A stretch of 54,679 nucleotides of DNA from Gammaproteobacteria bacterium (GTDB lineage Bacteria; Pseudomonadota; Gammaproteobacteria; Tenderiales; Tenderiaceae). The position numbers were made by a program, and so were the translations under genes. This document shows, in pieces, positions 5,388 to 9,262 of this stretch (its first letter is position 1; each line of letters starts with the position of its first letter). The stretch spans positions 1 through 54,679 of the forward strand of contig JAKFXL010000072.1 in the NCBI GenBank assembly GCA_021731365.1, given 5' to 3'. A model generated the notes under the pieces. It had not been told where the DNA came from and searched no databases. It worked only from the letters and a program-made list of their open reading frames with translations.

Positions 5388-8108
5388 ATGTCCGATCAAA
5401 CAGAAAAACCGCTTATCCTGGTGGATGGTTCATCCTATCTCTACCGCGCCTTCTTTGCCATGCCACCACTCACCACTGCGCAAGGTCTACCCAGTGGCGC
5501 GGTATACGGGGTGGTAAATATGCTTAAGCGACTGATTAAAGATTATGAGCCAACATTGATGGCCGTGGTCTTTGACGCTAAGGGTAAAACCTTCCGCGAC
5601 GAGCTGTTTGAACAGTACAAATCCCACCGCCCCCCCATGCCCGATGAGATGCGTAGTCAGATTGAGCCGCTGCACAATCTGGTTCGGGCCTTGGGGATCC
5701 CAATGTTGATCATTGATGGTGTGGAGGCGGACGATGTGATCGGCACCCTGGCGGTTCAGGCGCGGGCAGCGGGCATCAATACCATTATCTCAACCGGGGA
5801 TAAGGATATGGCGCAGCTGGTGGGTGAGCGGGTTACCCTGATCAATACCATGACCAATACCTCGATGGACCATGCCGGTGTTATCGAGAAGTTTGGTATC
5901 CCACCGGCGCGTATTGTTGATTACCTGGCACTGGTGGGCGACAGCTCCGACAACATTCCCGGCGTGCCCAAGGTGGGTCCGAAGACCGCGGTGAAGTGGC
6001 TGCTGGAGTTTGGCTCTGTCGATGAGATCGTCACCCGCGCCGCCGAGATTGGTGGCAAGGTCGGCGAAAACCTGCGTGGCAATCTGGAACAGCTGGCGCT
6101 GTCGCGACTGCTGGCCACCATCAAATGTGACGTGGAACTGGCGCTGCGTCCGGATGAACTCAAGTTGCACGCCCCCGACATCAGCGCCCTGCGTGACCTG
6201 TATACCCAGCTTGAGTTTAAAACCTGGCTTAATCAGTTGCGCGATAGTGACGCCGCAATACCGGATATTGAAGCAGATACGTCAAAATCCGCTGCCATTG
6301 CTACAGAGTACGAAACTGTTCTTACCCAGGAGCGCTTTGACCACTGGCTGGATCAACTGAAAAAGGCCGAACTCTTCGCCTTTGATACCGAAACCACCAG
6401 TCTCGACTACATGCAGGCGCAGATCGTTGGCGTCTCGTTTGCGGTAGAGGCGGGCAAGGCCGCCTATGTGCCGCTGGCCCACGATTACATGGGTGCCCCG
6501 GCGCAACTCAATCGTGAACACGTATTGAATAGCCTCAAACCACTGCTGGAAGATGCCAACAAGGCCAAGCTCGGCCAAAACCTCAAATATGACATGAGCG
6601 TGCTTGCCAACCACGGCATCACCATGGCCGGCATCCGCTTCGACACCATGCTCGAATCCTACGTGCTCAACAGCACCGCCTCACGCCACGACATGGATAC
6701 CCTGGCGCTGGCACACCTCGGTCATCAGACCATCCATTTCGAAGATATTGCCGGCAAAGGGGCGAAGCAGCTCACCTTCAACCAGATCGACATCGAACAG
6801 GCCGGCCCCTATGCCGCCGAGGATGCCGACATCACCCTGCGACTGCACCAAACCCTCTGGCCCAAGCTGGAGGCCGACGCCGGGCTGAAAAAACTCTTTG
6901 ATGAGATCGAGATGCCGCTGGTACCGGTGCTGTCGCGCATCGAGCGGACCGGCGTGCTCATCGACCGCGATATGTTGCATAAACAGAGTCACTTCCTGGC
7001 GCAGCGCATGGAGGAGATCACCTTGGCAGCGTATGAAGAGGCGGGTGAGGAGTTCAACCTCAGCTCGCCAAAACAGATCCAGGCGATCCTCTTCGACAAA
7101 CTCGGCCTGCCGACGCTCGAGAAGACCCCCACCGGCCAGCCCTCCACTGCTGAACCGGTGCTGCAGGAGCTGGCGCTCGATTACCCGCTGCCCAAACTGA
7201 TTCTGGAGCACCGATCCCTGAGCAAACTCAAGTCGACCTATACCGACAAACTGCCGGGGCAGATCGACCCGAGTAGCGGCCGTGTCCACACCAGCTATCA
7301 TCAGGCGGTGGCCGCCACCGGGCGACTCTCCTCCTCAGACCCAAATCTGCAAAACATCCCCATCCGTAGCGAAGAGGGACGGCGCATCCGCCAGGCCTTC
7401 ATCGCCGCGCCGGGTTACATCATGCTGGCCGCCGACTACTCCCAGATCGAACTGCGCATCATGGCCCACCTCTCCGGCGATGCCGGCCTGCTGCACGCCT
7501 TCAAAGAGGGGCAGGATATCCACAGCGCCACCGCCGCCGAGATCTTTGGTGTGCCGCTGGAACAGGTAGAGACCAACCAACGCCGCAGTGCCAAAGCCAT
7601 CAACTTCGGGCTTATCTACGGCATGTCCGCCTTTGGCCTGGCCAAACAGCTCGGTATCGCCCGCGGTGCCGCCCAGGAATATGTCGATCTCTACTTCGCC
7701 CGTTATCCGGGTGTAAAGGAGTTCATGGAACGGATGCGTCAGGAGGCCCACGACCAGGGCTATGTTGAGACGCTTTTTGGTCGCCGCCTCTATCTGCCGG
7801 ATATCAACAACCGCAACGCCCAACGCCGCCAGTACGCTGAGCGTGCCGCTATCAACGCGCCAATGCAGGGCACCGCTGCCGACATCATCAAACGCGCCAT
7901 GATCAGCACTGACAACTGGCTTGAAACAAGCGGCATCAACGCCCGCATCATCATGCAGGTCCACGATGAACTGGTATTCGAAATTGGTGCAGAGTGTTTG
8001 GATCAGGCCAGGATAGAGATTGAAAAATGTATGACCGGTGCCGCTGAACTGGCTGTACCGCTAGTGGTTGATATAGGTGTTGGCCCTAACTGGGATGAGG
8101 CGCATTAG
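5388..8108 (+). CDS. polA: DNA polymerase I
   Basis: This is the repair and Okazaki-fragment-processing polymerase. Its 906 residues carry all three activities in order. The N-terminal 5'-3' exonuclease has [13 protein letters not shown] and GDSSDNIPG. The 3'-5' exonuclease keeps its catalytic acidic pair in [11 protein letters not shown] (D333, E335), so proofreading should be intact. The polymerase domain has motif A DYSQIELR (D683), motif [15 protein letters not shown] and motif C VHDELVFE (D860). No clear Shine-Dalgarno precedes the ATG. The gene is followed by two small-RNA genes on the same strand, with no obvious terminator between polA and the first, so read-through is possible. Confidence 0.99.
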
Positions 8109-8163
8109 GGGTTACCCGAAAGCCCACCCATCCCGGTTAGAAAAAAATTTTCCTTTAGCCCTT

Positions 8164-8190
8164 GAACTTTCGAGAACAGGGCCGATCTAC
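8164..8190 (+). promoter_or_regulatory. Sigma-E-like promoter of small RNA 1
   Basis: GAACTT is followed after 16 bases by TCTAC. This fits the extracytoplasmic sigma factor pattern of the RpoE/AlgU group (GAACTT, 16-17 bases, TC-rich -10). Transcription would start about 6 bases downstream, near A8196, which is where the first hairpin of the RNA begins. A sigma-70 reading (TTGAAC, 18 bases, TCTACT) is possible but weaker. Confidence 0.6.
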
Positions 8191-8195
8191 TAGGT

Positions 8196-8321
8196 AAGCG
8201 CACCCCTTGCGCTTACCCGCTCTCCCTCCCTTGAGCGGGAACCCCTCTAACCCGGTTTCCCCAAGCCGGGAAGGAAATTTTGGCCCCGGTTGCCCTCCAA
8301 TGTGAAGCCGGGGTTTTTTTT
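8196..8321 (+). ncRNA. Candidate small RNA 1 in the polA-engB gap (C-rich loops)
   Basis: This ~126-base transcript is predicted from its promoter, structure and terminator. Hairpin 1 pairs 8196-8202 with 8208-8214 (loop CCCCT; the DNA repeat extends to 8193-8217). Hairpin 2 pairs CCCGCTC 8216-8222 with 8233-8239 (loop TCCCTCCCTT). Hairpin 3 pairs 8251-8258 with 8263-8270 (loop CCCC). The terminator stem 8284-8291/8305-8313 is followed by eight T. Every loop holds a C-run able to pair with Shine-Dalgarno GGAGG/GGGG sequences. The polA-engB gap hosts Spot 42 in enterobacteria and vibrios, and ErsA in Pseudomonas. The position therefore supports an sRNA of that locus, although the sequence itself is not recognised as Spot 42. 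Confidence 0.75.
8284..8321 (+). terminator. Intrinsic terminator of small RNA 1
   Basis: CCCCGGTT pairs with AAGCCGGGG (one G-T pair), leaving a 13-base loop that itself contains CCCTCC. An uninterrupted run of eight T follows. This is a classical Rho-independent terminator pointing to the right. Confidence 0.9.
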
Positions 8322-8326
8322 ATTTT

Positions 8327-8361
8327 AAAAACAGGGTGATAGCATTTACCCCACTGTTTTT
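8327..8361. terminator. Second hairpin after small RNA 1, possible backup terminator
   Basis: AAAAACAG pairs with CTGTTTTT (8 bp) around an 19-base interior with a short GGT/ACC inner pairing. The A-run and T-run inside the arms would let it work weakly in either direction. It lies 5 bases after the main terminator. Confidence 0.4.
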
Positions 8362-8443
8362 CAGGCCGGTCAAGTTCTGCTAATTACTCTGCCACCGCTT
8401 TGGCCCACAGGCAAAATAACTTTTTAATTACCCGACCCGCATT

Positions 8444-8471
8444 GAACTTTAGTTGTGATGTGGTTGTCAAT
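8444..8471 (+). promoter_or_regulatory. Sigma-E-like promoter of small RNA 2
   Basis: GAACTT is followed after 17 bases by TCAAT, again matching the RpoE/AlgU pattern. The upstream context TTGAACTTT is identical to that of the first small RNA. The predicted start near 8477 coincides with the first stem of the second RNA. Confidence 0.58.
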
Positions 8472-8476
8472 CAGTT

Positions 8477-8596
8477 TGAGTGTCTTGCTCCTCAATACCT
8501 GCGGGTTTCCCTCTTTCCTCGCAGGATCCCAACCTCCCCGGGTTGGGGTCGACTTGATTGCCCCGGGTCTCTCCTGATTCCCCGGGGCTTTTTTTT
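8477..8596 (+). ncRNA. Candidate small RNA 2 in the polA-engB gap (C/U-rich loops)
   Basis: This ~120-base candidate sits in tandem with the first and has the same architecture. A 5' stem TTGAG/CTCAA (8476-8480/8491-8495) comes first. Hairpin B pairs CCTGCG 8498-8503 with 8520-8525 (16-base loop containing TTTCCCTCTTTCC). Hairpin C pairs 8526-8534 with 8541-8549 (loop TCCCCG). The terminator pairs GCCCCGGG with CCCGGGGC. The stems differ from those of RNA 1, but the layout, C/U-rich loops and promoter type are shared, as expected for diverged duplicates or two regulators with overlapping targets. It ends 10 bases before the end of convergent engB. Confidence 0.72.
8560..8596 (+). terminator. 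Intrinsic terminator of small RNA 2
   Basis: An 8-bp all-GC stem (GCCCCGGG/CCCGGGGC) closes a 13-base loop and is followed by eight T. It points to the right. On the other strand there is no T-run after the stem, so it would not stop engB transcription efficiently. Confidence 0.9.
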
Positions 8597-8605
8597 GCCC
8601 CGTTG

Positions 8606-9262
8606 TCACCGGTTTTTAGGGGGTTCTGCCGTTTGAACAGGCTCAAAGCCAAACCATTCATCCAGTAGCGCCTGGGCATCTTCAACCCCCGTCCCTTTAA
8701 GGGCGGAGAATAGCTGTACGGTAGCCCATGGCTGGTCGCGCTCGACGCTAAACTCCTTGTTTAGGGTTTGCCGGACTTGCATTAAGGTATTCCCTGCGGC
8801 ACCACGCCCCAGTTTGTCGGCTTTGGTCAGCAAAATGTGGACCGGCATGCCGGTAACCTGGCACCACTCGAGCATTTGTGAATCGAAGTCAGTAAATGGG
8901 TGGCGGATATCCATCATCATGATCAGCCCCCGGAGACATTCACGCTGGCGCAGGTAGAGTTCGAGTGTATGTCGCCAGTGGCGTTTGACTTGATCGGATA
9001 CCTTGGCGTAGCCATAGCCCGGCAGGTCAACGATGTAGCGCTGCTCATCGAGTTGAAAGTAGTTGATCTGTTGTGTTCGCCCGGGTGTTTTGCTGATGCG
9101 TGCCAGTGCTTTTTGGCCAGTAATGCGATTGATGGCGCTGGATTTGCCGGAGTTGGAGCGCCCGGCAAAGGCGATTTCGATCAGGTTGTCTGAGTTGGGC
9201 AGCTGCGTCAGATTGTGTGCGCCCATCGTAAAGGTGGCGCGTTGATAGGTAGGATTTGTCAT
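8606..9262 (-). CDS. engB: Ribosome biogenesis GTPase EngB (YihA/YsxC)
   Basis: This is a small TRAFAC-class GTPase needed for large-subunit ribosome assembly. The 218 residues have G1 GRSNSGKSS (about 34-42), G3 DLPGYGYAKV and G4 LTKADKL, which are all typical of EngB. It is convergent with polA, with the two small-RNA genes between them. This is the same polA-engB synteny seen across gammaproteobacteria. Its start lies downstream of the cyclic-nucleotide-binding gene on the same strand, only 9 bases away, so they may be co-transcribed. Confidence 0.97.
   Translation of the reverse strand: MTNPTYQRATFTMGAHNLTQLPNSDNLIEIAFAGRSNSGKSSAINRITGQKALARISKTPGRTQQINYFQLDEQRYIVDLPGYGYAKVSDQVKRHWRHTLELYLRQRECLRGLIMMMDIRHPFTDFDSQMLEWCQVTGMPVHILLTKADKLGRGAAGNTLMQVRQTLNKEFSVERDQPWATVQLFSALKGTGVEDAQALLDEWFGFEPVQTAEPPKNR

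Follow-up and report, generated by a model that had tools for sequence, protein, structure and literature searches.

Two small RNA genes between polA and engB

The window, the whole stretch of 54,679 nucleotides analysed here, carries polA and engB as convergent genes, and the 497-base gap between them (8109–8605) holds two consecutive small RNA (sRNA) genes on the plus strand, which we call unit 1 and unit 2 (Table 1). The sequence-only reading of this DNA had proposed two plus-strand sRNA genes in tandem in the polA–engB gap, and folding, conservation and model matches bear this out. The span that it gave starts precisely at the first promoter element (GAACTT, 8164) and stops at the final T of the second terminator (8596), and the GC-rich terminator with eight T that it described for each unit is present, both T-runs being 8 long.

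Table 1 Positions in the window of the two sRNA units, their promoters and hairpins, and the flanking genes
Feature	Position	Strand	Details and evidence
polA (DNA polymerase I, 906 aa)	5388..8108	+	Upstream flank; open reading frame; flank homologous in relatives
Promoter of unit 1, sigmaE/AlgU type by motif	8164..8189	+	GAACTT (8164-8169)-N16-TCTA (8186-8189); sequence; kept in relatives
Unit 1 sRNA gene, predicted transcript ~8193-8321	8193..8321	+	Fold, covariation, model R1, Rfam RF02837
Unit 1 5' hairpin	8193-8217	+	
Unit 1 second hairpin	~8216-8239	+	Loop UCCCUCCCUU at 8223-8232
Unit 1 third hairpin	8251-8270	+	Loop CCCC
Unit 1 terminator	8282-8315	+	T8 at 8314-8321
Promoter of unit 2, sigmaE/AlgU type by motif	8444..8470	+	GAACTT (8444-8449)-N17-TCAA (8467-8470); sequence; same-family genomes
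Unit 2 sRNA gene, predicted transcript ~8476-8596	8476..8596	+	Fold, model R1, RF02837, similarity to unit 1
Unit 2 weak 5' hairpin	8476-8495	+	
Unit 2 hairpin	8499-8524	+	Loop UUUCCCUCUUUC
Unit 2 hairpin	8525-8550	+	Loop CCCC
Unit 2 terminator	8560-8588	+	GC-rich hairpin; T8 at 8589-8596
engB/yihA (218 aa)	8606..9262	-	Convergent downstream flank; open reading frame; homologues in 35/37 relatives

Folding and covariation

Unit 1 folds at -54.8 kcal/mol (z -3.97) and unit 2 at -49.8 kcal/mol (z -4.10), and in neither case was any of 200 dinucleotide shuffles as good. The fold of the spacer between the two units is unremarkable (z -0.38). A simple terminator scan returned 2 terminator-like sites where 2.1 are expected and is uninformative here, partly because the terminator loop of unit 1 is longer than the scan allows.

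The structure of unit 1 is conserved. When it is aligned with its counterparts from distant Gammaproteobacteria, the stems covary (93.8% of cells are paired) while the loops CCUCCC and CCCC are invariant across the alignment. The sequence-only reading had named hairpins without compensating changes as the result that would speak against it; for unit 1 the opposite was found, as 16 of 21 pairs are changed on both sides. None of 500 shuffles scored as high; since kinship among the sequences inflates this figure, it should not be read as a probability. Both the slid controls (28-52% paired) and the number of pair types agree with the covariation. For unit 2, stem changes such as CUGCC/GGCAG versus CCCGC/GCGGG are seen by eye only, in a ragged hairpin alignment.

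We built a covariance model (R1) from 15 units, unit 2 not among them. It matches at the same site in 11 of the 11 genomes of the family, with unit 1 scoring 115.4 bits. The compensating changes and these same-site matches in all 11 family genomes are the stronger proof against chance.

Sibling copies and their spread across the class

In a search of the whole genome, R1 recovers unit 2 with 40.9 bits (E 1.6e-8), and the pairwise similarity of unit 2 to unit 1 has a z of 7.4 against shuffles. The two units share ancestry, and unit 2 appears to be an old, diverged duplicate or sibling of unit 1 with a putative sigmaE-type promoter of its own. Being far more diverged (40.9 versus 115.4 bits) and having loops and stems that vary between species, unit 2 could instead be a decaying duplicate, or mainly a terminator region between convergent genes, that has no regulatory role beside a functional unit 1. 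We regard this as unlikely, given that the engB-proximal unit retains its GAACTT element and three-hairpin plan throughout the genera of the family and that the copy in the window folds better than all of its shuffles.

A third copy is present in the window's genome (G000:C1:241270-241394). Over 153 aligned bases that take in the promoter, its identity to unit 1 is 82%, and the copy keeps a sigmaE-type promoter motif. A candidate fourth copy (G000:C6:6444-6554, 25.7 bits with R1) was rejected, as it is a terminator hairpin that ends a neighbouring reading frame and has no GAAC promoter motif.

Beyond this genome, relatives of the RNA were detected in 162 of 369 genomes of the Gammaproteobacteria in the GTDB sense (R1, E <= 1e-5). 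Many of the best R1 matches adjoin engB, often with polA beyond it, and some copies in other genomes sit away from polA. A Nitrosomonas MAG and a Burkholderiales MAG each have one unit convergent with engB. In relatives from the same family, including MAGs labelled 'uncultured Chromatiaceae', between one and three units can be recognised in the gap, usually two or three, and one genome (G007) shows a recent duplication of unit 1 (L009). Several families have tandem units that each carry a sigmaE-type promoter, as pairs (L220, L223, and L224) and, in one locus (L219, G180:C33:13150-13905), as four tandem copies, each with a GGAACT...GGTCTGAC sigmaE-like promoter. The sequence-only reading stands on the tandem arrangement and the site shared with Spot 42 and ErsA, and it overlooked the sigmaE-type promoters, the third copy and the class-wide spread.

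Several loci depart from the arrangement in the window. Two of them (L220 and L221; G031:C49 and G285:C1) have a tandem pair of units at a site with neither polA nor engB; sigmaE-like promoters are present in at least L220, and the genera concerned also have a single copy beside engB. In L002, L005, L006, L007, and L008 a third, CU-rich sRNA-like unit, missing from the window, lies in the middle between two sigmaE-type units. This middle unit, which belongs to the gaps of the closest same-family relatives, carries a promoter of sigma70-like form, such as TTGACT...TATAAT in L005. In L014 (2282-2383, G024:C26) the unit in the polA–engB gap is reversed and runs along the engB strand, with the AAAAGTTCA/GAACTTTT element kept in front.

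Matches to known RNA families

The covariance-model search of Rfam proposed in the sequence-only reading matched both units to anti-hemB (RF02837), unit 1 with 43.9 bits (E 2.8e-08) and unit 2 with 29.5 bits. Both align over model positions 1-81 and both are below the cut-off of 49.5. The third copy is also below it (41.5 bits, G000:C1:241270-241373), and a sister locus (L003) reaches it with 49.8 bits. The double-hairpin, or Betaproteobacteria toxic sRNA, family (RF02278) gave 18.0 bits (E 2.4) against a cut-off of 50. Between 7000 and 10000 in the window there is no Rfam match to Spot 42 (RF00021) at E up to 5. The units are therefore rejected as Spot 42, in agreement with the earlier remark that the sequence is not Spot 42-like.

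The Pseudomonadaceae were sampled via a genome with an AlgU that shares 93% identity with its P. aeruginosa counterpart; the AlgU query was used only to choose a genome. The first genome of this family (G171) has no polA beside engB, and other members were sampled instead. Their polA–engB gaps contain GAACTT...GTCAGA promoters together with an RNA that resembles ErsA and has CCCUCCCC in its terminator loop; its locus, promoter and size suggest that it is ErsA. R1 matches the gap in all 14 Pseudomonadaceae loci searched (E 5e-8 to 1e-3), and the correspondence with the Pseudomonadaceae RNA is good in the 3' half and poor in the 5' half.

In the open-access literature, a search combining this locus with sRNA and sigma factors brought up Spot 42, ErsA and otherwise only unrelated papers, which is no proof of novelty. 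The suggestion that the two units are an undescribed pair of regulators holds for this lineage. As a kind of regulator they are not new, given the sub-cut-off matches to RF02837 and the locus, promoter type and part of the architecture shared with ErsA. The units are a tandem version of a regulator type already known, and the results are evidence that this type extends well beyond what is catalogued.

Promoters of the sigmaE/AlgU type

Promoters of sigmaE in E. coli and of AlgU in P. aeruginosa have the form GAACTT-N16/17-TC. The sequence-only reading had noted a promoter-like sequence before each unit; both are present, and judged by the motif their type is sigmaE/AlgU, not sigma70. The GAACTT-N16-TC arrangement precedes unit 1 in distant genomes too, and GAACTT with TC[AC] is equally placed at the engB-proximal unit of same-family genomes. 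Loci outside the family were checked for GAACTTN15-17TC in a 58-base stretch surrounding the predicted start: 18 of the 24 contain it, with L175 as a doubtful fit among them, compared with 0.08% of random windows from the same loci; the other six lack the strict motif. Genome-wide, the pattern GAACTTN{15,17}TCTA occurs at 5 sites, that of unit 1 included, whereas the reversed pattern occurs at 21; two of these 5 sites lie immediately in front of sRNA units.

The rpoE-rseA-rseB operon is intact in the window's genome, and hfq is present. The strict GAACTT pattern has no match upstream of rpoE, where the element is GAACC or GAACT followed by other bases. In the rpoE upstream regions of seven family loci it takes the form GAACnn-N16-TCTAT or TCTAC at an equivalent place, the window's own genome excepted at the -10, and the unit 1 promoter shares its form and spacing with this element. 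Across the sampled genomes, a close RpoE/AlgU homologue is found in 157 of the 162 that have the RNA versus 122 of the 207 others, a comparison that ignores kinship and in which reduced genomes lack both.

Upstream of rpoE in the window's genome (L114, G000:C7) the sequence reads GAACCT...GTCCAT where all relatives read GAAC...TCTA(T/C). This may represent a weaker or changed autoregulatory promoter.

The promoter evidence also bears on whether the units could be real sRNAs of a metabolic type, transcribed by sigma70 and tuned to carbon or amino acids, with GAACTT being the site of another factor. Spot 42, at the same locus, is repressed by cAMP-CRP (PMC3295665), the tandem CU-rich siblings NmsRA and NmsRB of Neisseria control the TCA cycle under RelA (PMC5362039), and the middle unit of relatives has its sigma70-like promoter. 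However, a simple promoter scan found no sigma70-like site on the plus strand of the window, the Spot 42 model has no match there, and GAACTT-N16/17-TC is kept across families at a fixed distance, in a form common to the rpoE upstream region. We consider this explanation slightly less likely again than decay of unit 2. It is very improbable that both units are products of the polA mRNA, that is, a structured 3' UTR with terminators, processed or inert and without promoters of its own: read-through from polA could occur, as no further terminator was seen from its stop (8108) to unit 1, but a promoter motif stands at a fixed spacing before each unit, the third copy has the same promoter far from polA, and other genomes have copies away from polA.

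A proposed role in the envelope-stress response

The explanation that we favour, and consider likely to be correct, is that the gap holds a tandem pair of trans-acting sRNA genes, units 1 and 2, that are transcribed separately, belong to an ErsA/anti-hemB-like group and are both controlled by sigmaE (RpoE/AlgU). Envelope stress would free RpoE, leading to transcription of both units and of the third copy. The resulting RNAs would be highly structured, with U8 tails suited to Hfq binding, and their CU-rich loops (UCCCUCCCU, CCCC, and CCCUCC) could pair, with the help of Hfq, with purine-rich ribosome-binding sites. Such pairing would lower the translation of a set of mRNAs. Since the third copy keeps a sigmaE-type promoter motif, the three genes together may constitute a small multi-copy sRNA arm of the envelope-stress response.

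Six sites in the genome match AGGGAGGGA, which is perfectly complementary to the unit 1 loop; one is the gene itself and another is at a ribosome-binding site. The latter (G000:C40:10617-10625, L234) is the only ribosome-binding site in the genome with this 9-mer and lies upstream of the gene for a cytochrome c7-like protein. Relatives do not strictly conserve the 9-mer there, so no target is claimed.

We give about equal weight for and against a broader proposal, in which ErsA, anti-hemB and many unannotated units would be branches of one ancient sigmaE-controlled sRNA family. This family would be anchored next to engB across the Gammaproteobacteria (GTDB sense, including the former Betaproteobacteria), and would have grown repeatedly into tandem arrays, in which two to four siblings with separate promoters divide the envelope-stress targets among themselves. 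If true, ErsA would be no Pseudomonas speciality, being one branch of an envelope-stress sRNA lineage that is present in 162 of the 369 sampled genomes of the class and most of which the Rfam anti-hemB model has apparently missed. Two sRNAs known from separate groups would be linked, with sigmaE control as a testable ancestral trait. With one to four tandem copies, and in some cases a middle copy under a different type of promoter, the lineage would also be a natural series in which to study why regulatory RNAs are duplicated in bacteria.

Comparison with known sRNAs

Spot 42 resembles the window units in location, as its gene, spf, lies in the polA–engB/yihA gap, but it is controlled by cAMP-CRP whereas the window units carry sigmaE-type promoter motifs. 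In Aliivibrio the gap contains both Spot 42 and a second sRNA of ~60 nt, VSsrna24 (PMC3295665), so two sRNAs at this site are not without precedent. Unlike the window pair, VSsrna24 is not described as a sibling of Spot 42.

The NmsRA and NmsRB RNAs are likewise tandem homologous sRNAs with CU-rich anti-Shine-Dalgarno loops, a resemblance in plan only. The NmsRs, Bordetella S17 and the RF02278 RNAs are all, like the window units, short and CU-rich with the anti-Shine-Dalgarno sequence exposed (PMC5362039, PMC11722255), but their loci and their control are different.

Anti-hemB, also known as Burkholderia RNA 7 (ncS04 of B. cenocepacia), shares with the window units the order of its elements, which comprise a hairpin with a CUCCCUCCCU loop, a middle hairpin and a CCCCGG terminator with a U-run. 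The curated RF02837 model has 81 positions and is without the 5' hairpin of the window units. Anti-hemB is not known to be under envelope-stress control. In B. cenocepacia, ncS04 is reported to bind Hfq and is not reported as induced by a 20-minute exposure to SDS (PMC5688073); therefore, not every relative need respond to envelope stress.

ErsA of Pseudomonas aeruginosa also lies between convergent polA and engB, has a GAACTT-type AlgU promoter with a spacing of ~16 bases, and is similar in size (132 nt reported). Its 3' half, with a C-rich-loop hairpin and the terminator loop CCCUCC(CC), is like that of the window units. In its published description ErsA folds into three stem-loops, with a U-rich seed domain that stays unstructured between SL1 and SL2 (PMC8575079). 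At this place unit 1 has its covarying CCUCCC-loop hairpin, and the 5' halves therefore do not correspond. The window's genome also differs in having two tandem units and a third copy. ErsA is known for Hfq-assisted regulation of algC, oprD, amrZ or anr, and hfq is present in the window's genome too. Expression of ErsA depends on AlgU, and its repression of algC is aided by Hfq (PMC8395346). The window units, which are probably distant relatives of ErsA and which we do not class as ErsA itself, probably work in the same way.
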